From Streptomyces sp. CA-210063 (GTDB taxonomy: Bacteria; Actinomycetota; Actinomycetes; Streptomycetales; Streptomycetaceae), in contig NZ_CP102512.1 in NCBI RefSeq assembly GCF_024612015.1, positions 1,488,001-1,552,000 of the forward strand: a stretch of DNA of 64,000 nt, written 5' to 3'. The notes beneath the pieces are model-generated. The model did not search any database. It was not told the DNA's origin and worked only from the letters and a program-made list of their open reading frames with translations. Shown in pieces: positions 1 to 10,182 of this stretch. Positions within the stretch are counted from its first letter, which is position 1. Each line of letters starts with the position of its first letter. The translations under genes and the position numbers were made by a program.

Positions 1-1290
1 ACAGTCTCGCAGGAATCGCACGTTCTGCCACCCGGTCACCCCCTTGCGCATGATGCGCAGGATGGGTGTACAGAGGCTTTCGACACCCGGTTGCAGTTGA
101 GTGAAACCGGCGCGCGCAAGGGACTCGAGTTGACCGAAATTAAGGTTCGACTTCACCTCGGCGAACAACCGGACGTCCCATTCAGCGGGCAGCGCCATAT
201 CCGTGGTCAGTCGAACCACATGGTCGGGCGCCAAAATGTTGTCAGAAAACACCAGGTCAAGCACGTTGTGCCGACGGACAGCCCGGCTGGCCTCCGCTTG
301 CACGCGCTCGGCAGGCTTTGCGCGATGGGCCATGGCCGACCCGTTCAAGCCGCAGAATGTGCAATGGTGCTTCGCACCCCACCAGCATCCGCGGCTGGCC
401 TCCAGAGGAATCTTGACATCGATGAGTTGGGCGGCCGGAGACTTCCGCAGATCGCGGAAATAGTGATCGTAGACGGGCTCCGGCACCGCGTTCATCGAGA
501 CGGGTGTCGGTCCGATGGGGTTGCTTACCGAGGCTCCATCGATGTCGGATCGCCAGCACAGGCCAGGCACGGCACGCAGCAGTTTGTCGTGTCCGTTCTC
601 GTCACCGCTACGACGTCCTGCGATGTGGGCGATGAGTGGCGCGATCGAGCGCTCCGCCTCGCCCCGGATCACGTAGTCGAACTCCGCGCGAGCGCGGTGG
701 ACTGCCGTACCTTGAACGCCGTCGCAGTTCGCCCCGCCGAGCATCGTGACGATGCTCGGGGACAACTCCTTGACGCGGTGCGCGAGCGCGAACGAGGCAA
801 TGTTCTGATCGAACGTCGTCGTCAACCCCAGGACATCGACGCCTGACGTTACGAGATCTCGGGCCAACTCGTCGACGAAGGCGGGCGCCGCGCGGAACAT
901 CGCACAATAGGCATCAACGTGCTCACTGTCGCTCACGAGGTCATAGAAACTCGTGTGACGTGGGTCGGTACCGGGGCGGAAGCAGCTGGAGAAGACCCAT
1001 TCGCCGACCCCGAACACCTCGGCATCGACGATCAGTTCGTAGTGCTCACGTTCGAGGCCCACCTCCCGGACCAGGAAGTCGAGCCACCGAATATTGGCAT
1101 AGACGACGTCGAGCTTCTCAACTTCTCCGCGCTGCTCGAACAACGGAGCGATCGTGCTCAGCGCCAGTGAGGGCATGTCCACCACGGCCCAGGGCATGCA
1201 GACCAACGCAACCGAAAGGGCATCCTCGTGCACGACCGGCGGGTTGAGATCCAGCACCGGTCGTTTGTGCCCGATCTGCATCAATTCCAC
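1..1290 (-). CDS. RiPP maturation radical SAM protein (B12-binding type), 3' end missing
   Basis: An open frame of 430 codons runs off the left edge. The GTG start at 1290 has AGGAG five bases upstream; an in-frame ATG at 1281 is a weaker alternative. A Rossmann-like cobalamin-binding region spans about residues 115-230 (VLGLTTTFDQN, TMLGGANCDG). The radical SAM motif EASRGCWWGAKHHCTFC follows, with C302-x7-C310-x2-C313. This spacing and the WWG/HHC context are typical of the 'ribosomal peptide maturation radical SAM protein 1' family, whose studied members include cobalamin-dependent C-methyltransferases. It lies 25 bp behind the MFS gene, in the same direction, so it is probably the last or next gene of the P450-MFS operon. 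The substrate peptide is unknown. The family call is firm; methylation is inferred from the family. Confidence 0.85.
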   Translation of the reverse strand, partial: MELMQIGHKRPVLDLNPPVVHEDALSVALVCMPWAVVDMPSLALSTIAPLFEQRGEVEKLDVVYANIRWLDFLVREVGLEREHYELIVDAEVFGVGEWVFSSCFRPGTDPRHTSFYDLVSDSEHVDAYCAMFRAAPAFVDELARDLVTSGVDVLGLTTTFDQNIASFALAHRVKELSPSIVTMLGGANCDGVQGTAVHRARAEFDYVIRGEAERSIAPLIAHIAGRRSGDENGHDKLLRAVPGLCWRSDIDGASVSNPIGPTPVSMNAVPEPVYDHYFRDLRKSPAAQLIDVKIPLEASRGCWWGAKHHCTFCGLNGSAMAHRAKPAERVQAEASRAVRRHNVLDLVFSDNILAPDHVVRLTTDMALPAEWDVRLFAEVKSNLNFGQLESLARAGFTQLQPGVESLCTPILRIMRKGVTGWQNVRFLRDC

Positions 1291-1315
1291 TTCGGCTCCT
1301 CATCGTTGGCCTGTT

Positions 1316-2581
1316 TCAGGATGCCTTTTGGTCGGCGGGCTTCTCGATCTCGGTGGTCACCCGCGCCCCGCGGAAGAGCACCGGGAGCCACAGGAGACAT
1401 GCCAGCAGGGGGACCGCGGCGTAGGTGGCCATGCCCACGCTGGATCCGAACCCGTCCATGAGCGTGCCGAGGACGAGATAGCCGATGCCGATGAGCACCG
1501 ACTCCACGAATGCGATCATCGACAGCAGGCTCGCCCGGTGGCGCGACGGCACGGCCTCATTGAACACGTTGTCCACGAGCACCGCGGTGATCTCGGGAAT
1601 CCCGGCCAGGACCAGGAACGCGGCGATGGTGACCCAGACAAGGCCGAGGCCGCTCAGGCCGAGTGCCACGGCGAGCGTCACGAGTGACACCGGGATGACG
1701 ATCCGATACCCGATGCGCCGGTTCGCGCGGTCCGACAGCAAGGGAACGAGTCCGCCGACGAAGAATCCCGCCGCTATGACCACGCTCACCACTGCGGTGC
1801 CCGCTCCCTGATCGGAGAGGGTCTTCTGCGTGAAAATGATGTACGGCGTCAAAGTCGCGTGCATCAATCCGGACACCACGACAAGCGTCACGAGCGCGGG
1901 CGTGGCGACCCGAAGCATCGCCCGCCATGCTGTGGCGTCGCTGTGCGCCTCGGCTCCGTCCTGCTCGTCCACCGCGTCCGCGCCGCGGATCTCGGGCACC
2001 CGTGACATCAGCACCACCACGGCCAGGACGAGGCACGCCGCCGAACCGACGTAGACGATTCCCCAGGAGAACTGCTGCAGTTGGCCGCCGAGGACGATGG
2101 CGACTCCCGAGGTGACCGTCCCGAGCATGGTGAACCGGGACTTGATCTTGACGTATCCGGCCGTTGCACCACGACGCACGAGCAGGTCGTACAGCAGGGC
2201 GGTATCCGAACCGGATACACATGCCATGCCCACGCCCTGGAGCATGAACAGTGCCAGGAACACCCAGTAGTTGGAGGACGTCACCTGACCGAGCAGGCAT
2301 CCAGCTATCAGCACCTGGCCGATCACGATGCTGGCACGCCTGCCGATCCGGTCAGCGATGATTCCCGTCGGCATCTCCGCGAGTCCGCTGACCAGGTAGA
2401 TCAGAGTCTGAAGGAGGGCCACTTGCCCGGCGGAGAAGCCTCGCTGATAGAGGAAGATGACGAATACGCCACGCTGGAACAGCGAGTTGGCGAGCACGGC
2501 GTAGACGTAGAACGGGCGCGCGATGCTTCGTGCTGCGTCGTCGACTGCAGCCGACCCGTCAAGGGCCTCCGTGGTGGTCAT
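1316..2581 (-). CDS. MFS transporter, probable peptide or metabolite exporter of the RiPP locus
   Basis: The 421-residue protein has about 12 hydrophobic segments split by a charged central loop near residues 200-220 (EIRGADAVDEQDGAEAHSD). The MFS loop 2-3 signature appears as GIIADRIGRRAS near residue 75. This layout fits drug or metabolite exporters of the major facilitator superfamily. Its ATG overlaps the stop of the preceding small ORF as ATGA, so the two are probably translationally coupled. The radical SAM maturase follows 25 bp downstream. The position between a P450 and a maturase suggests export of, or self-protection against, the mature product. Substrate and direction cannot be read from the sequence. 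Confidence 0.88.
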   Translation of the reverse strand: MTTTEALDGSAAVDDAARSIARPFYVYAVLANSLFQRGVFVIFLYQRGFSAGQVALLQTLIYLVSGLAEMPTGIIADRIGRRASIVIGQVLIAGCLLGQVTSSNYWVFLALFMLQGVGMACVSGSDTALLYDLLVRRGATAGYVKIKSRFTMLGTVTSGVAIVLGGQLQQFSWGIVYVGSAACLVLAVVVLMSRVPEIRGADAVDEQDGAEAHSDATAWRAMLRVATPALVTLVVVSGLMHATLTPYIIFTQKTLSDQGAGTAVVSVVIAAGFFVGGLVPLLSDRANRRIGYRIVIPVSLVTLAVALGLSGLGLVWVTIAAFLVLAGIPEITAVLVDNVFNEAVPSRHRASLLSMIAFVESVLIGIGYLVLGTLMDGFGSSVGMATYAAVPLLACLLWLPVLFRGARVTTEIEKPADQKAS

Positions 2582-2829
2582 GCTGCGGGATCCCCCTGGT
2601 GACTCCGGTGATCATTGGCGTTGGGCCTCCGCCGTCGACCGGAACTTACCGTCCTTACTTCGCGCAGGACATCCGGCCGACCCTCCGGGAACCGTTGCCG
2701 GCGCCGCTGCGATCCTCGGTGGAGGTGCCAAGTGCCGGAACCGGTAGCGTGCATCTCCTGGTAACCCTCCACCACCGGCAGACTCGGCTCCGGCTCCGGT
2801 CGGCCGTGCCCGATCTGCAACAAGTCCAC
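2578..2829 (-). CDS. Small coupled ORF (83 aa) sharing its N-terminus with the radical SAM protein
   Basis: GTG start at 2829 with AGGAG upstream. The stop overlaps the MFS start (ATGA), which argues for real translation. Its start region repeats that of the radical SAM gene at 1290: AGGAGCCG, then V-D/E-L-L/M-QIGH-G/K-RP, with a further PVV match. After about residue 20 the similarity ends. The rest is rich in Arg, Gly and Ser, and the last third has poor codon bias. It could be a RiPP precursor, a leader-like peptide, or a decayed 5' fragment of a duplicated maturase gene. An upstream in-frame GTG at 2862 directly abuts the P450 stop but has no clear ribosome binding site. No family is recognised. 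Confidence 0.5.
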   Translation of the reverse strand: MDLLQIGHGRPEPEPSLPVVEGYQEMHATGSGTWHLHRGSQRRRQRFPEGRPDVLREVRTVSSGRRRRPNANDHRSHQGDPAA

Positions 2830-2862
2830 TCCGGCTCCTGTCACCGGCTCAGCCTCGTTCAC

Positions 2863-4101
2863 TTACCAGCTCACGGGCATCTTCTTGACGCCGTATCCGA
2901 GCCCGTCGTCCATGAACGGGAGGTCGACGAGGTCGGCGGCCAGGGCCAGTGTCGGAATGCGCCGGAACAAGGCGGCGAACACGACCTGGAGCTCCAGGCG
3001 GGCCAGCGGTTGGCCGGTGCACTTGTGCACACCGTGCCCGAAGGCGAGCTGCTGGCTGGCATCGCGGCGTAGGTCCAGCTCCCCGGCATCGGGGAACACG
3101 CTTTCGTCGCGGTTGCCGATCTCCTCCGGGAGGATCAGACCCTCGCCGGCGCGGATCACCTGCCCGGCGATCTCGATGTCCTCCACGGCCACGCGGCGAC
3201 GGCCGGGCTGGACGGTGGTCAGGTACCGCAGCAGCTCGTCGACGGCCGCGGCGACCTCGGGTCCGTCGGAGTCCTTCAGGACAGTGATCTGGTCGGGATG
3301 TTGCAGCAGGGCCAGCGTGCCCAGCGCAATCATGCTGGCTGTGGTCTCGTGCCCCGAGACCAGCAGGAACAGGACCAGCATCACCAGCTGATGCCGGTTC
3401 AGCTGGCCGGTGGCCAGCCGTTCGGTGGCCAGCTGGGACAGCAGGTCGTCTTCGGGGGCGGCGAGCTTGCGGCCGATCAGCTTCGCCAGATAGTGATACA
3501 GCTCGCGCTGGGACTTGTTCATGACGTCGTCCGGGACGTCGCTGCCGGTCATTGTCCTGATGGCGTGCTGGAAGAAGTCGTGGTCCTCGTAAGGGACGCC
3601 GAGCACGTGGCAGATGGTGATGGACGGAATCGGCAGGGCGAAATCCGCCACGAAATCCGCCGGCTTCGGGCCGGCCAGCAGAGCATCGATGTGGTCGTCG
3701 ACGACTTGCTGGACTGTGGGCCGCAGTTGCTCGACCTTGCGGGGGGTGAACGGCCGGGCGATCATCCGGCGCAGCCGGAGATGCTCGGGGCCTTCCATGG
3801 CGGTCAGGAACTGGCCTTCTTCATGGTGGTCCCGCAGAAACTGACTGTGGAACGGGTAGCCCGGCTGCATCCAGTCCGCGCTGACCCGGCGGTCCGACAG
3901 GAGCGCGCACTGCTCCGCATGCCTCGTCACCAACCACGGAGTGCTGTCGTCCCAAAGCCGAACTCGGACCAGCGGCGCCCGTTCCTGTAGCTCGGCGAGT
4001 CCAGGTGCCGGATCCAGCGGACAACCAGACGCCCTGGGAATCGGAAAGAACGGGACTGCCGTGGATTCCAGATCAGGAACGTTGGCCTGCGAAGAGGTCA
4101 C
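2863..4101 (-). CDS. Cytochrome P450 (bacterial class I, CYP105/107-like layout)
   Basis: The 412-residue soluble P450 carries the I-helix SGHETT near residues 249-254, the K-helix ExxR (ELLR) and the heme-binding FGHGVHKCTG with axial Cys361. Length and motif spacing are normal for actinobacterial tailoring P450s, which need a separate ferredoxin; none is encoded nearby. I chose GTG at 4101 because GGAG lies eight bases upstream. An ATG at 4143 would add 14 residues without a good ribosome binding site. The gene leads the leftward operon P450, small ORF, MFS, radical SAM, so oxidation of a peptide product is the natural guess. An unrelated small-molecule substrate is possible. Confidence 0.92.
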   Translation of the reverse strand: MTSSQANVPDLESTAVPFFPIPRASGCPLDPAPGLAELQERAPLVRVRLWDDSTPWLVTRHAEQCALLSDRRVSADWMQPGYPFHSQFLRDHHEEGQFLTAMEGPEHLRLRRMIARPFTPRKVEQLRPTVQQVVDDHIDALLAGPKPADFVADFALPIPSITICHVLGVPYEDHDFFQHAIRTMTGSDVPDDVMNKSQRELYHYLAKLIGRKLAAPEDDLLSQLATERLATGQLNRHQLVMLVLFLLVSGHETTASMIALGTLALLQHPDQITVLKDSDGPEVAAAVDELLRYLTTVQPGRRRVAVEDIEIAGQVIRAGEGLILPEEIGNRDESVFPDAGELDLRRDASQQLAFGHGVHKCTGQPLARLELQVVFAALFRRIPTLALAADLVDLPFMDDGLGYGVKKMPVSW

Positions 4102-5031
4102 AATCCTAGCTCCGTCCCGAATGTCACATAACGGAAGACACATTAAAAGTGGGGGCCGATGGCACCCACAGCCTCAAGAGACCTCATGACCGCCGGCAGG
4201 AAGACCCTGCCGGATGCCCTGAATGACTGGGCTCGCTGAATGGAGTGATCGCCGAATCGGCTTCCACGACCTGCGGATTCCGGTCTTTGATCTTCCGCGC
4301 CACATGGCGGGAAACGATCCCTGTGCAGCCCTTGTCCGCTGACGGTGAGCAGTCTCAAACGGCAGCCTCTCCGCTTGGCACTGTTCCGGACCGGCAGCAG
4401 CCTACCCAGATTCGATCAAGCCCTACAAGGGGCGGGAAAGGCCTGGCAACCGTCGGCCAGGGGACATCGGGGCACGTGCGCGATGCGCCGGAACCGCACG
4501 GGCCGTCGGCAGTCCCGCCCCACGAAATGCCCTCAACCGGAACAGTGGAGTACCACTCCCCCATCGGCATGAAGAGGGCACTGAACAGGACATTCACGAC
4601 CTACCGCGCTGACGACTGGGGGAGAAGCGGAATCGATTGACCGTCAGCGGTCCTCTCGCTCCCCCGGATCAAGCAGACCCGGTGTCATCGCGTCCGCCGC
4701 TCAGGGAGAGGTCCCCACCAGCAAGGTCGCCACCCCCCGTACGCGATCAGATTCGGATCATCGAACAGCGCTGCGAAGGCTCCCCGCGGCGTGGGGAGAT
4801 CGCATCTTGTGAACTGCCCTCGCGATCTTGCGTGCTGGAAGACTGAAGAACTCCCATCGTCGCAGGCCACAGGGCACTTCCTCATTCCTGGCAACATCAC
4901 AGCCACACAACGGCCGATGCGTCTGGGACCAGGCGTGGCACCGGGAAGCGTGCGCACTGCCCATTGACGAGACGCCAAAGACTGTATGAGATAAGGATGT
5001 TGGAACCAGTCAAGGTAAAGAGGGGTCAAAA
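4102..5031. other. Divergent control region of the RiPP locus, no convincing gene
   Basis: About 930 bp separate the P450 start from the precursor start. Open frames on both strands lack ribosome binding sites, codon bias and recognisable motifs. Two structures stand out: a small inverted repeat AGTGG-agta-CCACT at 4544-4557, overlapped by a second palindrome GGAGT-acc-ACTCC, and a hairpin CTCCCC-7-GGGGAG at 4780-4798. Either could be an operator or an RNA structure. A minus-strand frame (4685-5044) ends in a Trp-rich tail, but its start falls inside the precursor gene and I do not support it as a gene. Confidence 0.55.
4964..4992 (+). promoter_or_regulatory. Candidate promoter of the precursor peptide gene
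   Basis: A TTGACG -35-like hexamer (4964-4969) is followed after 17 bp by TGAGAT (4987-4992). This matches the spacing, and partly the sequence, of Streptomyces housekeeping promoters. It lies about 40 bp before the precursor ATG, which has AGAGGGG as ribosome binding site. The -10 match is only partial. Confidence 0.4.
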
Positions 5032-5193
5032 ATGACGCAGGCACTGACGGAGCGTTCGGTGACCATGACGGATGAGGCCAAACCGGACATGGTGCTCTTC
5101 ACCGACGAGGAAGGTCTTGACCTTGACGATGACGTCGAGTTGATCGCCCTGTCATCGGCTACTTTGGGCGCCATCGTTGCGCGGCGCTGCTGA
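5032..5193 (+). CDS. Candidate RiPP precursor peptide, 53 aa, ending in Cys
   Basis: ATG at 5032 with AGAGGGG nine bases upstream gives a 53-residue peptide. It has an acidic, leader-like middle (FTDEEGLDLDDDVELIA) and a small C-terminal segment SSATLGAIVARRC. Acidic leaders with an ExLxxL-like helix followed by a short Ser/Thr/Cys-containing tail are usual in RiPP precursors. The gene is first in a rightward cluster with a B12 radical SAM enzyme, a substrate-binding-protein fold and a MccB-like adenylating enzyme. A hairpin lies between it and the enzymes, as expected when a precursor must be made in excess. No known precursor family is recognised, and the core boundary is a guess. C-terminal modification is plausible given the E1-like enzyme. 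Confidence 0.75.
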   Translation: MTQALTERSVTMTDEAKPDMVLFTDEEGLDLDDDVELIALSSATLGAIVARRC

Positions 5194-5220
5194 TCGCATC
5201 TGATGCCGACTCAGAAACGA

Positions 5221-5250
5221 CTGGCCCTCTCGTTTGCTGGAGAGGGCCAG
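5221..5250 (+). promoter_or_regulatory. Perfect 11-bp hairpin sequestering the radical SAM ribosome binding site
   Basis: CTGGCCCTCTC (5221-5231) and GAGAGGGCCAG (5240-5250) pair perfectly around an 8-base loop. The 3' arm contains AGAGGG, which sits four bases before the GTG start at 5251. The structure can therefore attenuate transcription after the precursor gene, block translation of the radical SAM gene, or protect the precursor mRNA 3' end. No T-run follows, so a plain intrinsic terminator is less likely. Confidence 0.7.
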
Positions 5251-7245
5251 GTGTCGGTTCGATCGTCCACGCGGCATGCTCGCGTGACGCTCGGCCGGCC
5301 CCTGATCAACTCCGATGTCAATTCTCCGTTCTTCGTTCCTCTCGGACTGCTCTGCATCGCCTCACCACTGATGGCGCACGGTCATCCCGCCGTCGTCGTC
5401 GACCTGGAGTACGAGCACCGGATCGGTGCCTTCGAGCCCAGTGATGCTGACTGGCTCGACCAGACCTGCGCTCGCTTCCTCGCCGACGATCCCGACATTC
5501 TCGGCCTCACCTGTCTCGCGGACACCCTCCCGGCGTGCCTTCTCATCGGGCGTCAGGTCAAGCGCCTCCGGCCCGATGTCACGGTGGTTCTCGGTGGACC
5601 CGGGACGTTCGGTGTCTTCCCCGACGCCCTCCCACGCTTCGCCGACTGCGTCGACTTCGTGTGCCGCGGCGAGGGAGAGCTCGCGATCACCGCCCTCGCG
5701 GATGCCATTGCCGACGGGACCGATCCCGCGGCGGTACGCGGCTTCTGGTCGTGCAAGAACGGCCAGGCCGTGTCCAGCGGGCCCCAGCCGACCACGAACC
5801 TGAACCTCGTGCCGATGCCCGCGTATGACGCCGTCCCGATGGGCGACTACATCCGGCTGTCGACCCCGCACATCTTCGACGTGCACATCGGCTCCGGGTG
5901 CACCTACTCGTGCAAGTTCTGCATGACGTCGACGTTCTGGGACCGCGACTTCCGGATCAAGGATCCCGCGGTCATCCTCGATGAGCTTCGCTTCCTGCAC
6001 CGCACGTACGGGGTGACCCAGTTCAACTTCCTGCACGACAACTTCGCCAACAAGCGCACGTATCTTGACGAGTTCGTGTCCTACTTCTCCGAGCACAACG
6101 ACATGTTCGAGTGGGGCTGCGCGGTCCGACCGGACAATGTCAACCCGTCCCTTCTGCGGCGCATGGCCGACGCGGGATGCTTCAACATCTTCTGCGGCAC
6201 GGACGCCGGGTCGGAGAAGATCCTCAAAGCCATGCTGAAGATGCCCTCGACGAAGCGGACCTACGAGTTCTTCCGGTCCGCCCAGGAAGTCGGCATCCAG
6301 TTCGAGACGAACACGATCGTGGGATACCCGGACGAAAGCGCCGACGACCTCGAGAAGGCACTGGAGGTCGTCTTCGACGCGATCGCCTACGGTGCCGTCA
6401 ACAGTGACCTCAGTGTGCTTCAGCCGCTTCCCGGCGCTGAGATCACGGATGAGTACCGGGCTGACCTCGAACCGCTCGAAAGCGGACTCGACGTCATGGG
6501 CACCTTCCTCCCGTCGGACGTCCGCGCGCTCATCAAGGATGATCTGGCGACCTTCACCGGATTCACCTTCATTCGCAGCGGCAATCGGGACTACGAGTAC
6601 TACCAGGACGTGTTGCGCCTTTCGCGGTACTTCACGCGCCGCTATTACCACCTGCTGAGATTCCTCAAGCAAGGTGCGGGACACACGTACGTCGAACTCA
6701 TCGACGCACTGCTCGAACGGGCTGCAATGCCCATCGAGGAAGCGCTCGCTGAGATTCTGGCGCACATGGAGGGCGTGCATGCGCAGGCCGCCAGGGCGCT
6801 GTTCGCATACGACTCGATGCTTGCGGAGTTCCGGGGGGACGAGGTCGAGAAAGAGCTCGTCAACGTATACCGGCGGCCCGCCACCGTGGAGGAAAAGCCG
6901 CATTTCCTGATCAGGGACTTCGATGTCGACGTCGTCACGATGATTTCCGACCCGCGCGAAATCACCTGGAAGCCGGAGCTGAGCCGTCCGACAGTCGTGG
7001 TCGTGTATCGCGCGAGTGAGGCAGAGGTGTCGACTCTCCGCCTGACGCCGGCGCAGGCCAAGGTGTTCAAGGCCCTCATGCCGCGCGGGCGGGAAGAACG
7101 CGAAGCTCTCCTCGCGAACATCGCCCCTGGGCGGCTGCGCGAGGTCGCGACGGCGGTGGCAGGGCTGTGTGCGCAGATCGACGCCTCGCCGGACGCCCCC
7201 GGACGGACTCCTCCGGTGGCCGACAGCCCCCTCGTGACCACGTGA
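5251..7245 (+). CDS. B12-binding radical SAM enzyme of the RiPP cluster
   Basis: The 664-residue protein has an N-terminal cobalamin-binding domain to about residue 150 (LGLTCLADT, VVLGGPG). The radical SAM core follows, with SGCTYSCKFCMTS giving C217-x3-C221-x2-C224. A mostly helical C-terminal region of about 240 residues has no recognised family. Family members act as methyltransferases or in C-C bond chemistry, using SAM and often cobalamin. The frame is open back to an ATG at 5203, but that start lacks a ribosome binding site and would put the hairpin inside the coding region. GTG 5251 has AGAGGG at the right distance. The stop overlaps the next start (GTGA). The reaction on the peptide is unknown. 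Confidence 0.9.
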   Translation: MSVRSSTRHARVTLGRPLINSDVNSPFFVPLGLLCIASPLMAHGHPAVVVDLEYEHRIGAFEPSDADWLDQTCARFLADDPDILGLTCLADTLPACLLIGRQVKRLRPDVTVVLGGPGTFGVFPDALPRFADCVDFVCRGEGELAITALADAIADGTDPAAVRGFWSCKNGQAVSSGPQPTTNLNLVPMPAYDAVPMGDYIRLSTPHIFDVHIGSGCTYSCKFCMTSTFWDRDFRIKDPAVILDELRFLHRTYGVTQFNFLHDNFANKRTYLDEFVSYFSEHNDMFEWGCAVRPDNVNPSLLRRMADAGCFNIFCGTDAGSEKILKAMLKMPSTKRTYEFFRSAQEVGIQFETNTIVGYPDESADDLEKALEVVFDAIAYGAVNSDLSVLQPLPGAEITDEYRADLEPLESGLDVMGTFLPSDVRALIKDDLATFTGFTFIRSGNRDYEYYQDVLRLSRYFTRRYYHLLRFLKQGAGHTYVELIDALLERAAMPIEEALAEILAHMEGVHAQAARALFAYDSMLAEFRGDEVEKELVNVYRRPATVEEKPHFLIRDFDVDVVTMISDPREITWKPELSRPTVVVVYRASEAEVSTLRLTPAQAKVFKALMPRGREEREALLANIAPGRLREVATAVAGLCAQIDASPDAPGRTPPVADSPLVTT

Positions 7246-8486
7246 ACGTGACGCGCCCCGTCATTGTCGAGGTGGACGACGACCCGATTCGATGGCACGG
7301 GCCCACGGGAGGCGACTACCTGAGCCGCTGGTTCGCCGCGGCGAGCCAACGCAGCCGGCTCGATCTCATGTGGGTCGCGGACGACGGGCTGAGCCAGCAC
7401 TACCGCGTCCAACAGGGCGCGTCCTTCTCCGACGGGAGCCCGGTGCGTGCGCGCGATCACGCCCGGGCGATCAAGACCGCGCTCACGGTTCCGTCGCTCC
7501 AGCGGTTCCTGCGTGACATCCGCGCGGTCCGCACATCGAAGGACGCGCTCGTCATCGAGCTCCGCCGCCAGGCGCCGCACCTTCCCAGCCTGCTGCGGAG
7601 CGTCGATCTCGCTCCCATCTCGTCGTGCGGGCAACTGTCCTCCGGTACGTACCAGCGTGCCGTGCGCACCGCCGATGACGAGTACTGGCTCGAACCCGTC
7701 AAGGCCGGCACGCCACCTGTGCGGGTGCTCGTCCGCCGCGATCCGCACGACGCCCCGGAGAGGTTCCGGCGGGGCGAGGTCGATGTGACGTGCGCGACGG
7801 CGTTTCCGCTCGACCGCGTCCCAGACTTCGCGGACAGCCAGGTGTTCCACACGGCACCGACCGCGATCGAGATGCGTCTTGAGATCAACCCCGACAGCCC
7901 GTCGGCGGTGGGCGACGCGGAGTTCCGTCGCCGGCTCCTCGGCGCGATTCGCTACGACCGCCTTGTCGCACGCTGCTGGAACGGTGCGGAGTCGGCAGCG
8001 CCCGGCCACCACGTCGAGGCCCCGCCCAGCACCGTCGGCTCCGGCGTACGGCTGCGCCTGGGGTACTGGGACTACTACCCCAACCGGGACGTGGCCGAAG
8101 AGGTCGCGGCCCAGCTGACCGAGAACCTCGGTGTCGAGGTCGAGCTGGCACGCGCCGACTTCATCTCGGGCTCGGCGCAGTCCTGCGACGTGCTCCTCGC
8201 GTTGCGGGGCCCGCTCTTCGAGGATCCGATCAGTGCTCTGGACCTGCTCGACCCGGCGCGCCGTGACCCCGTCCTCGCGCCGCTGCTGCACCGGCTGTCC
8301 GAAGTCCCGGACGACGATGCGGCGCACGACGAGCTGCGGCGAACGGTTCGCGAGCAGTGTCCGGTCCTGCCGCTCCTGCGTCTCCGAGGCCACTGGCTGC
8401 AGCGCGAGGCACTGGCAGGTCGGCCCTGGCCGCCGATGGGCGCCGTGCGCTTCCCCCGGTTCAGCTGGAACGCCGATTCTGCATGA
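7242..8486 (+). CDS. Cytoplasmic protein with peptide ABC substrate-binding (SBP_bac_5) fold
   Basis: The 414-residue protein resembles the family 5 solute-binding proteins (oligopeptide/nickel class). Recognisable pieces are FSDGSPVRARDHARAIKTAL, EFRRRLLGAIRYDRL, and the C-terminal pattern of alternating strands and helices. There is no signal peptide, lipobox or twin-arginine motif: the start, fixed by the GTGA overlap with the upstream stop, gives MNVTRPVIVEVDDDP. It is also shorter than the usual 500-plus residues. No permease or ATPase gene is nearby. It may hold the precursor or product inside the cell, as a chaperone, scaffold or sequestering immunity protein. That role is inference; the fold call rests on pattern recognition. 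Confidence 0.7.
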   Translation: MNVTRPVIVEVDDDPIRWHGPTGGDYLSRWFAAASQRSRLDLMWVADDGLSQHYRVQQGASFSDGSPVRARDHARAIKTALTVPSLQRFLRDIRAVRTSKDALVIELRRQAPHLPSLLRSVDLAPISSCGQLSSGTYQRAVRTADDEYWLEPVKAGTPPVRVLVRRDPHDAPERFRRGEVDVTCATAFPLDRVPDFADSQVFHTAPTAIEMRLEINPDSPSAVGDAEFRRRLLGAIRYDRLVARCWNGAESAAPGHHVEAPPSTVGSGVRLRLGYWDYYPNRDVAEEVAAQLTENLGVEVELARADFISGSAQSCDVLLALRGPLFEDPISALDLLDPARRDPVLAPLLHRLSEVPDDDAAHDELRRTVREQCPVLPLLRLRGHWLQREALAGRPWPPMGAVRFPRFSWNADSA

Positions 8487-8527
8487 TCTTCGCCAAACGG
8501 TGATCTCGCTACGAAGGAAGTCCAGGG

Positions 8528-9478
8528 ATGGCTGATGGTATCGACCGCTACGTGCTCTCGCCCGCGGCGACCTGGTCCCGCGACGGCGACGAGCTGCGCG
8601 TCTTTTCCGACGAGGTACTGCTGGTTCGACGCTGCCCTGAATCGATGTTCGAATGGCTCAAAGCGGTCTCCGACGAGCCGGCCGGCCTCGCAGCTCCGAG
8701 CGGAAGCCAAGTGGACGCCATCGTGCGTACGCTGATTCGGCTTCGCCTCGTAGTCGCGCCGTTCGACCGTTCGTGGCACTCGTCCGCTTGGCGGAACCAG
8801 GTCGAGTACTTCGCGGCCTTGGGTCTGGATGCCGGCGCGGCACAGGATCGGCTGCGCGCGGCCCACGTGACCGTTCTCGGCGTCGGCGGCATCGGCGGCG
8901 CGGTGCTGGCTGAGATCGTGGGTGCGGGCGTGGGCGGGCTCACGCTCGTGGACGGCGACCGGGTCGCGCTGGAGAACTTGAACCGTCAATATCTCTATCG
9001 GCGTTGTGACGTCGGACGGGCAAAGGTCGATGTGGCCCGCGAGTGGGTGCGTGAGCGTCTCCCTGAAGCGGAGCCGACCGCTGTCATGGAAACCATCACG
9101 ACCAGCGAGGCGTTGGTGCCGTACCTGCGAGAAGGTGGGTTCCTCGTTGTCGCGGCCGACCGTCCTGCGTCGCTGCCGGAACTGTGCGCTCAAGCCTGTC
9201 TTGAGCGCGGAGCGTCGATGATCACGGGAGGCTGCGGCCTCCGAGTAGGGTCGAGTGGCCCGTTGATCCGGCCGGCCGATGTCCCGGCCTTCATCGCGTC
9301 ACGCCAAGAGGCAAAGGCCACGGCCGGAGCCGCGGTCACACCGATGGCGGCCTCGTTCGGCCCGGTCAATACGCTGGTAGGCGCGACGATGGGCCGTGAT
9401 CTCATCTTCGGCATACTCGGTGTGAGCGCCCGAACGACTTCGCATCGCGTCGAGCTGCTGGGGACGGCTCTGACCTGA
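8528..9478 (+). CDS. MccB/ThiF-like E1 adenylating enzyme with putative N-terminal leader-binding domain
   Basis: The 316-residue protein has the E1 nucleotide-binding loop LGVGGIGG at residues 117-124. It also has NLNRQYLYRRCDVGRAK, with the conserved Arg and Lys of the ThiF/MoeB/MccB fold, and the conserved Asp in VVAADRP. Residues 1-90 form a separate small alpha/beta segment resembling the winged-helix peptide clamp of MccB or other RiPP recognition elements. The expected zinc-binding CxxC pairs of MoeB are absent, as in MccB. MccB adenylylates the C-terminus of microcin C peptide; here the likely target is the 53-residue peptide ending RRC. ATG at 8528 follows AAGGAAG. The gene ends the cluster. 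Confidence 0.82.
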   Translation: MADGIDRYVLSPAATWSRDGDELRVFSDEVLLVRRCPESMFEWLKAVSDEPAGLAAPSGSQVDAIVRTLIRLRLVVAPFDRSWHSSAWRNQVEYFAALGLDAGAAQDRLRAAHVTVLGVGGIGGAVLAEIVGAGVGGLTLVDGDRVALENLNRQYLYRRCDVGRAKVDVAREWVRERLPEAEPTAVMETITTSEALVPYLREGGFLVVAADRPASLPELCAQACLERGASMITGGCGLRVGSSGPLIRPADVPAFIASRQEAKATAGAAVTPMAASFGPVNTLVGATMGRDLIFGILGVSARTTSHRVELLGTALT

Positions 9479-9483
9479 GCTTG

Positions 9484-9997
9484 GCTTTTGTCCCCGCTGA
9501 GCTCGGTGCTCCTGGATCGATTCGGCGCGTTTGGCCGTCTTGCCGACGTCGTGGTGCCTGGCCTGGTGCTTGTTCTTCGGTGCGGTCCAGCCGAGGGTCT
9601 GCTTCATCAGCCGGAAGGTGTGCTCCAGGTCGAAGCGGCGCAGGAACGACTGCCATCAGCGGTCGATGTCCGTAGGTGTGGCCCTGTCTGCCGAGGACCA
9701 CAGCCAGACGGGTTTCGGGTCGCGGTCGCCCGGCAGGTGCTCGACCTTCAGCCGGATCAACGTGCCGTGGAGGATGGGCGGTTCTTCGTGGGCGTGCTCC
9801 AGCCAGGGGCCGCGGTGGGTGGGTCCGGGGTGCATCCGGTCCCAGGAGGTCGCCCCGGCGGTGCCGTAGCGGGTGGTTGCGGTGGACGCGGTGAGGTCGG
9901 GGGTGCGCCAGCCGTCGCGCAGGCATGTCCTGTTTCCGCAGGTGAGAGGCGCAGGACCTGGACCGCCACCGCCTCGCCCCCTCATCGAGCCGATCAC
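9484..9997 (-). pseudogene. Degenerate IS-type DDE transposase remnant
   Basis: The minus strand encodes pieces typical of a large Streptomyces transposase family: WDRMHPGPTHRGPWLEH, HGTLIRLKVEHLPGDR, PKPVWLWSSA and FLRRFDLEHTFRLMKQTLGW. A TGA at 9656-9658 interrupts the frame where relatives carry Cys before Trp. After GWTAPK the sequence jumps to a C-terminal-like stretch ending GKTAKRAES, so an internal block is missing. The N-terminal half is also absent. The remnant is inactive and fills the gap between the E1 enzyme and the tRNA gene. Outer limits are approximate and I found no terminal inverted repeats. Confidence 0.75.
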
Positions 9998-10097
9998 GAG
10001 GCTCGAGGCCCCAGAAACGACGAATTACCGGTGAGTCACATGACTCGACCGGTAATTCGTGAACGCTTCGGGATGATCTCGTGAACGTCCCACTGTG

Positions 10098-10182
10098 TGT
10101 CCGAGGGGGGACTTGAACCCCCACGCCCGATAAAGGGCACTAGCACCTCAAGCTAGCGCGTCTGCCATTCCGCCACCCGGAC
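10098..10182 (-). tRNA. tRNA-Leu(GAG)
   Basis: A complete class II cloverleaf can be drawn. The acceptor stem is GTCCGGG/CTCGGAC, the D-stem GCG/CGC, and the anticodon stem CTAGC/GCTAG around loop TTGAGGT with anticodon GAG. A long variable arm (TGCCC...GGGCG) and T-stem GGGGG/CCCCC with TTCAAGT follow. The 3' CCA is not encoded. The 3' end faces the transposase remnant and the RiPP locus, the usual orientation for island integration at a tRNA gene. Confidence 0.96.

Follow-up and report, generated by a model that had tools for sequence, protein, structure and literature searches.

Microcin C is made from a heptapeptide precursor that ends in Asn and receives a nucleotide, and its exporter, MccC, belongs to the major facilitator superfamily (MFS). 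Here we analyse a candidate cluster for a ribosomally synthesized and post-translationally modified peptide (RiPP) in the soil bacterium Streptomyces sp. CA-210063, at the left end of a 64,000-nucleotide stretch (contig NZ_CP102512.1, positions 1,488,001 to 1,552,000; hereafter the window), whose nine genes encode a 53-residue precursor, two radical S-adenosylmethionine (SAM) enzymes (rSAM1 and rSAM2), a DUF5825 protein, two cytochromes P450 (P450a and P450b), an MFS transporter, a protein with a solute-binding protein (SBP) fold and a ThiF/E1-like adenylating enzyme (E1). Among ThiF-like enzymes of RiPP pathways, MccB, EnfB and IndF adenylate C-terminal carboxylates, and an Arg, a Lys and an Asp are reported to be essential in EnfB and MccB (PMC12250964). 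The same source describes pantocin A (PaaP/PaaA), in which the ThiF-like enzyme acts on a Glu-Glu pair, and the GRC family of Streptococcus (GrcA/GrcB), which unites a ThiF-like E1 enzyme and a radical SAM enzyme with a precursor ending in Cys. In the aminopyruvatide pathway, the cobalamin (B12)-dependent radical SAM enzyme ApyD and the P450 ApyO act on one precursor, the product of the former being beta-methyltyrosine (PMC10635010), and a B12 radical SAM enzyme paired with a DUF5825 protein is reported to C-methylate clavusporins (PMC12257519).

The locus shares features with each of these systems. With microcin C it has in common the relationship of the E1 enzymes, a small precursor and MFS-type export, but its precursor ends in Cys in all 19 distinct sequences, its E1 lacks a CxxC motif, and radical SAM enzymes and P450s are present. 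Like GRC, it combines a ThiF-like E1 and radical SAM chemistry with a C-terminal Cys; however, GRC has a five-residue Glu-Cys thiolactone of its own, whereas the tail AIVARRC has no Glu four residues before the Cys, and the cluster adds B12-type methyltransferases, P450s, DUF5825 and the SBP-fold protein. Aminopyruvatide biosynthesis likewise pairs a B12 radical SAM enzyme with a P450, but the cluster has no multinuclear non-heme iron-dependent oxidative enzyme (MNIO) among its nine genes, no separate methyltransferase gene and no precursor Tyr, while it does have E1 and SBP-fold proteins; moreover, scores are far under the ApyD and ApyO cut-offs (for rSAM1, whose best NCBIfam match is ApyD, 200.8 bits against 750). 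The radical SAM/DUF5825 pair is of the same kind as that of clavusporin-type clusters. Pantocin A clusters also hold a ThiF-like enzyme, a small precursor and an exporter, but the Glu pair of the present precursor, residues 26-27, lies in the leader part and is not fixed (Gly replaces E26 in 3 of the 19 sequences), and pantocin-like chemistry was rejected for this reason. Since each family fails a feature that was tested, we place the cluster with the RiPPs of ThiF-like enzymes, outside the microcin C, GRC, pantocin and aminopyruvatide families. A preliminary description of this DNA, limited to the precursor, rSAM1, SBP and E1 genes, had named no described family with that set, and among the open-access papers listed in our literature searches we likewise found none that combines E1, B12 radical SAM, P450 and SBP-fold genes. 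With the exception of the SBP-fold protein, the parts of the cluster have precedents individually.

From left to right, the minus strand carries P450b, DUF5825, rSAM2, MFS and P450a, after which the plus strand carries the precursor, rSAM1, SBP and E1. Eight distinct related loci were recovered, the window not counted, seven from Streptomyces and one from Pseudofrankia (L016). Six of them came from aligning the SBP-fold protein to genome contigs (L012-L017), one from a plasmid collection (Streptomyces chartreusis plasmid NZ_CP108841) and one from a class-wide search (G579, same genus). All nine proteins, the peptide included, are present in every one of the eight loci, with P450b incomplete in L013 and L061, where the end of the extracted stretch falls within the gene. 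An open reading frame (ORF) check and family scans placed the four plus-strand genes where the preliminary description had put them. Its view that they form one unit is borne out as far as it goes, as the peptide accompanies all three enzymes in 8/8 loci and the enzymes never occur there alone; the unit it drew was incomplete, however, for the conserved unit comprises nine genes including the divergent part, and about 2.4 kb of it lies outside the window start. When flanks were compared at 35% identity over 60% of length, with ORFs chosen mechanically, no ORF family beyond P450b or beyond E1 was common to the seven loci compared (the window and L012-L017).

The precursor gene (5032..5193, plus strand) encodes an acidic peptide without a Pfam or NCBIfam match, and AAAGAGGGG stands ahead of its start codon. 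The 20 sequences aligned (the window, the eight loci and 11 predicted proteins matching the peptide in a protein database, some possibly from genomes already counted) gave the 19 distinct precursors. Residues 1-19 are variable, P18 excepted, while residues 20-53 are conserved and read (M/L/I)VLF(T/S)D(E/G)EG(L/F/V)DLxDD(V/I)EL(I/V)xL(S/T)SA(T/S)LGA(I/L)(V/T)ARRC. Positions 32 and 39 vary; the tail, LSSATLGAIVARRC in the window, is otherwise fixed, apart from exchanges between S and T, I and L, and V and T, and a single residue of L016 that is unread. The conserved tail for which the preliminary description proposed an alignment is thus real: ARRC closes all 19 precursors, in which D33, D34, E36 and the C-terminal Cys are invariant. 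Aromatic residues are absent from the tail, and residues 37-53, the final 17, include no acidic one. Relative to the eight loci, the final 14 codons show 3 changes at first, 1 at second and 19 at third codon positions; over all 53 codons and seven loci the corresponding numbers are 43, 20 and 50. Because substitutions in the tail fall mostly at third positions, the ORF is, on the codon evidence, a genuine gene whose tail is under constraint at the protein level; a chance ORF was ruled out by this pattern, by the 11 database matches and by the presence of the peptide in 8/8 loci. The peptide is likely divided into a recognition segment, residues 20-38, and a core from about residue 40. Nine bases separate its stop codon from the rSAM1 start, and in Streptomyces the two genes lie in one frame, with the TGA and three codons between them (window 5191-5203). 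Fusion of the two by TGA readthrough was rejected, as the distance is 170 nt in Pseudofrankia L016, and the common frame, not kept there (L016:4721-4732), is probably accidental.

The reading that we favour, and hold to be somewhat the more probable, is that the nine genes form a complete RiPP cluster in which the tail is methylated and oxidised, adenylation of a carboxylate leads to ring closure, the peptide is bound in the cytoplasm by the SBP-fold protein and the product leaves through the MFS protein. We infer the product, the E1 reaction and the SBP role as follows. Residues 20-38 of the precursor, which are acidic and conserved (VLF-S/T-D-E-G-DL-DD-EL), would bind the enzymes. In the tail, from about residue 40 to 53, unactivated carbons would be methylated by rSAM1 and by rSAM2 with its partner DUF5825, and the two P450s would oxidise or cross-link this part; biaryl chemistry is not expected, as the tail has no aromatic residue. 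E1 would adenylate a carboxylate, that of Cys53 at the C-terminus being the most likely one, and the ring would be closed by a nucleophile within the peptide: a Ser/Thr hydroxyl conserved at position 41, 42 or 44, a sulfur, or an amide. The cytoplasmic SBP-fold protein may bind the modified Arg-rich tail as carrier, chaperone or means of self-protection, and the MFS protein would export the product. The interpretation offered in the preliminary description, C-terminal adenylylation, cyclisation or thiolation of the Cys-ending peptide together with radical methylation, receives partial support.

E1 (8528..9478, plus strand, 316 residues) matches PF00899 at 111.8 bits (3.7e-32), its E1 domain spanning residues 85-310. 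As the preliminary description had proposed, it is MccB-like: MccB is both its closest solved relative in sequence comparison and its closest fold in a fold search, and the ATP-site residues are kept (GVGGIG at 118, NLNRQ at 150, K166 and D211). In an alignment to MccB, R153, K166 and D211 probably match the Arg, Lys and Asp that are essential in EnfB and MccB. The CxxC absent from E1 is the zinc site of MccB, whose CyeC sits in an insertion outside the E1 profile.

The SBP-fold protein (7242..8486, plus strand, 414 residues) starts with a GTG that overlaps the TGA of rSAM1, and it matches PF00496 at 46.4 bits (3.9e-12; cut-off 32.4). It is the weakest SBP_bac_5 frame of its genome: with neighbours it scores 47 bits, while the other frames reach 164-266. 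Its solved relatives by sequence, all distant, are peptide-binding proteins (OppA, 3.1e-11; AapF, 1.6e-4; DppE, 1.1e-3). The lack of an export signal noted in the preliminary description is confirmed for the window copy, which has no signal peptide and no hydrophobic N-terminus (highest 15-residue mean 0.23 within the first 50 residues), and no ABC (ATP-binding cassette) permease gene is found among the nine. These features suggest a cytoplasmic peptide binder that could serve synthesis, storage or self-protection; among the open-access papers listed in our searches we found no precedent for such a protein in a RiPP context. Sixteen relatives, among them P0072 with its aberrant tail, are at least 60% identical, and a further relative shares 32%. 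They include proteins from Nocardioides aurantiacus (P0075, 60%) and Mycobacteroides chelonae (P0074, 70%); P0075 scores 23.4 bits with PF00496, under the cut-off.

rSAM1 (5203..7245, plus strand, 680 residues) carries the B12-binding and radical SAM domains (PF02310, 4.8e-12; PF04055, 3.9e-17), a CTYSCKFC motif and a C-terminal NGO1945_C-like domain at residues 590-641 (PF22106, 28.7 bits; cut-off 27), a candidate for leader recognition. A search of its own genome with rSAM1 as query led to another B12 radical SAM gene, rSAM2, which spans the window start (1..1290, with its 3' part at 14365-15000 of L006, the neighbouring 15-kb stretch on the left; minus strand). rSAM2 has 641 residues and a CX7CX2C motif; its L014 orthologue (91% identical) scores 502.3 bits with TIGR03975, a family of RiPP radical SAM C-methyltransferases (cut-off 281.85), and 24.4 bits with the B12-binding profile PF02310, under the cut-off of 32.1. 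From family knowledge, we take rSAM1 and the rSAM2/DUF5825 pair to be C-methyltransferases. DUF5825 (L006:13796-14368) and P450b (L006:12637-13803) follow rSAM2 outside the window on the minus strand. P450a (2863..4143, minus strand, 426 residues) has the heme motif FGHGVHKCTG and, in the I-helix SGHETT, the usual Thr that hydroxylase P450s use; P450b reads SGVEV at that place, without the Thr. The MFS gene (1316..2581, minus strand), likely an exporter, is found in 8/8 loci.

Several observations weigh against the reading of a modified, ring-closed and exported tail. The preliminary description had MccB-type enzymes act on peptide C-termini, which holds for MccB, EnfB and IndF, but PaaA acts on internal Glu residues (PMC12250964), so a ThiF-like enzyme need not work at the C-terminus; MccB-type precursors, furthermore, end in Asn rather than Cys. 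Residues 1-80 of E1 form a small strand-and-helix domain that is possibly a RiPP recognition element (RRE), yet a profile search for an RRE gave no match, the positive control failing likewise, and in the fold search no match row covered residues 1-80 well, which is not evidence of absence. Family scans found no protease family among the nine proteins, so leader removal would need a host protease. Finally, the conservation of the precursor is so high that the product would differ little between strains, and a scaffold peptide fits this as well. Such a peptide would be a conserved carrier, and the exported product a small molecule that originates from its C-terminal Arg/Cys residues and is cleaved from it, pyrroloquinoline quinone (PQQ) and 3-thiaglutamate being examples. 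The very high conservation of residues 20-53 in the 19 distinct sequences, Streptomyces and Pseudofrankia included, and a tail free of aromatic residues, where the oxidation and methylation enzymes could act on one or two residues, agree with it, but L40-A50 are conserved nearly as strongly as RRC and excision is disfavoured by the fact that none of the nine genes belongs to a protease or peptidase family; we regard it as rather improbable.

The other alternatives concern the E1 and SBP-fold proteins. In GRC biosynthesis the ThiF-like enzyme GrcB connects two precursor residues, Glu35 and the C-terminal Cys39 (PMC12250964), and E1 could by analogy adenylate the side chain of E36 or another invariant Asp/Glu. 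Attack by the Cys53 thiol would then form a large thiolactone through the side chain and leave the C-terminus free. The invariance of Cys53, E36, D33 and D34 would suit this chemistry; with no acidic residue in the last 17, though, the ring would count 18 residues instead of 5, and E36 looks leader-borne, which makes the proposal an unlikely one. We are equally doubtful, at about the level given to the scaffold peptide, of a specific version of the favoured pathway, amounting to a RiPP class in which the SBP carrier, a transporter-derived fold recruited into the cytoplasm, holds the Arg-rich tail, E1 adenylates the Cys carboxylate, and the Cys thiol, perhaps beta-methylated, or a tail hydroxyl captures it to give a C-terminal thiolactone or lactone electrophile; in its boldest form the product would be a peptidyl beta-thiolactone stabilised by beta-methylation. 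It is also conceivable that the peptide cluster is real but that SBP and E1 serve immunity or sensing, by sequestering or inactivating re-entering product, rather than biosynthesis. SBP_bac_5 proteins do bind peptides, as the distant matches to OppA, AapF and DppE recall, and no separate immunity gene is obvious. Nevertheless, SBP and E1 are linked to each other, in one row with the precursor and rSAM1, in all eight loci, self-protection would normally be covered by MFS export, and the E1 enzymes of the RiPP clusters considered here (GrcB, MccB, EnfB, IndF and PaaA) are modification enzymes, so that we give this explanation very little credence.

The cluster is rare and patchily distributed, its gene order can be rearranged and one copy sits on a plasmid; this suggests a mobile unit, one that seems to spread horizontally. 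rSAM1 is matched at 1e-60 or better in 3 of 294 other genomes of the genus, and G+C is 65% in window positions 1-9478 against 71% in 11001-64000. The SBP alignment, with four candidates scored per genome, found four matches in 394 genomes of the class (the own genome, two of the same genus and one Pseudofrankia); in two other genera it found none in 215 and 396 genomes, a weak guide to spread. In the Pseudofrankia locus the gene order is rearranged, a second P450a is present and the MFS protein is only 37% identical. Among plasmids, rSAM1 was found at full length in one record, the remainder being rhizobial radical SAM genes of less than 60% identity, and SBP gave no additional record in the collection. 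E1 matches at 1e-15 occur in 365 of the 394 genomes, but none of the 12 best E1 places outside the family, taken with their flanks (two of them short: L051, 15.8 kb, and L055, 6.4 kb), has a match to rSAM1, SBP, the peptide, rSAM2, DUF5825 or P450 at 1e-4; a weak MFS match is seen in L058. P0020 (E1, 37-38% identity) and P0076 (SBP, 32%), the closest relatives found beyond the family, may be members of a sister class.

Some further features lie within or beside the cluster. A possible RNA hairpin of 11 bp (5221..5250, plus strand) covers rSAM1 codons 7-16, just 3' of the peptide gene, with z -3.8 (-4.5 in L016). One of its 11 pairs shows a compensatory change, a count matched by 66 of 500 shuffles, and the synonymous sites beneath it are not conserved above the rSAM1 average; for both reasons an attenuator role is only possible, and the hairpin was rejected as a proven regulatory element. 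Between MFS and P450a, a 94-residue ORF (2578..2862, minus strand), whose N-terminus by eye resembles that of rSAM2, appears to be what is left of another rSAM2 copy, from its 5' end. In L013 the same interval contains a further DUF5825 gene together with a short ORF similar to rSAM2 (L013:4746-5545, minus strand), whereas Pseudofrankia L016 has its second P450a instead. The interval looks like the site of traces of a lost, duplicated and decaying second rSAM2/DUF5825 module. A tRNA-Leu(gag) gene lies just downstream of the cluster (10097-10182, minus strand), and two minus-strand ORFs scanned between it and E1 (9299-9607 and 9405-10124) have no Pfam match. Elsewhere in the genome (L007:8102-19992; 6.653-6.665 Mb), three more TIGR03975-type radical SAM genes (530, 431 and 435 bits) sit near one another and likely belong to a second RiPP locus with several C-methyltransferases.

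The cluster brings together B12 radical C-methylation, P450 oxidation and E1 adenylation on one short non-aromatic tail, with a cytoplasmic solute-binding fold as a further component of the RiPP operon. Should that protein indeed be a biosynthetic carrier, a transport fold would have gained a new role. Because the cluster is compact, seemingly complete and carried by named Streptomyces strains, a direct search for the product is feasible, and its E1 enzyme could be of use for chemistry at a C-terminal Cys.

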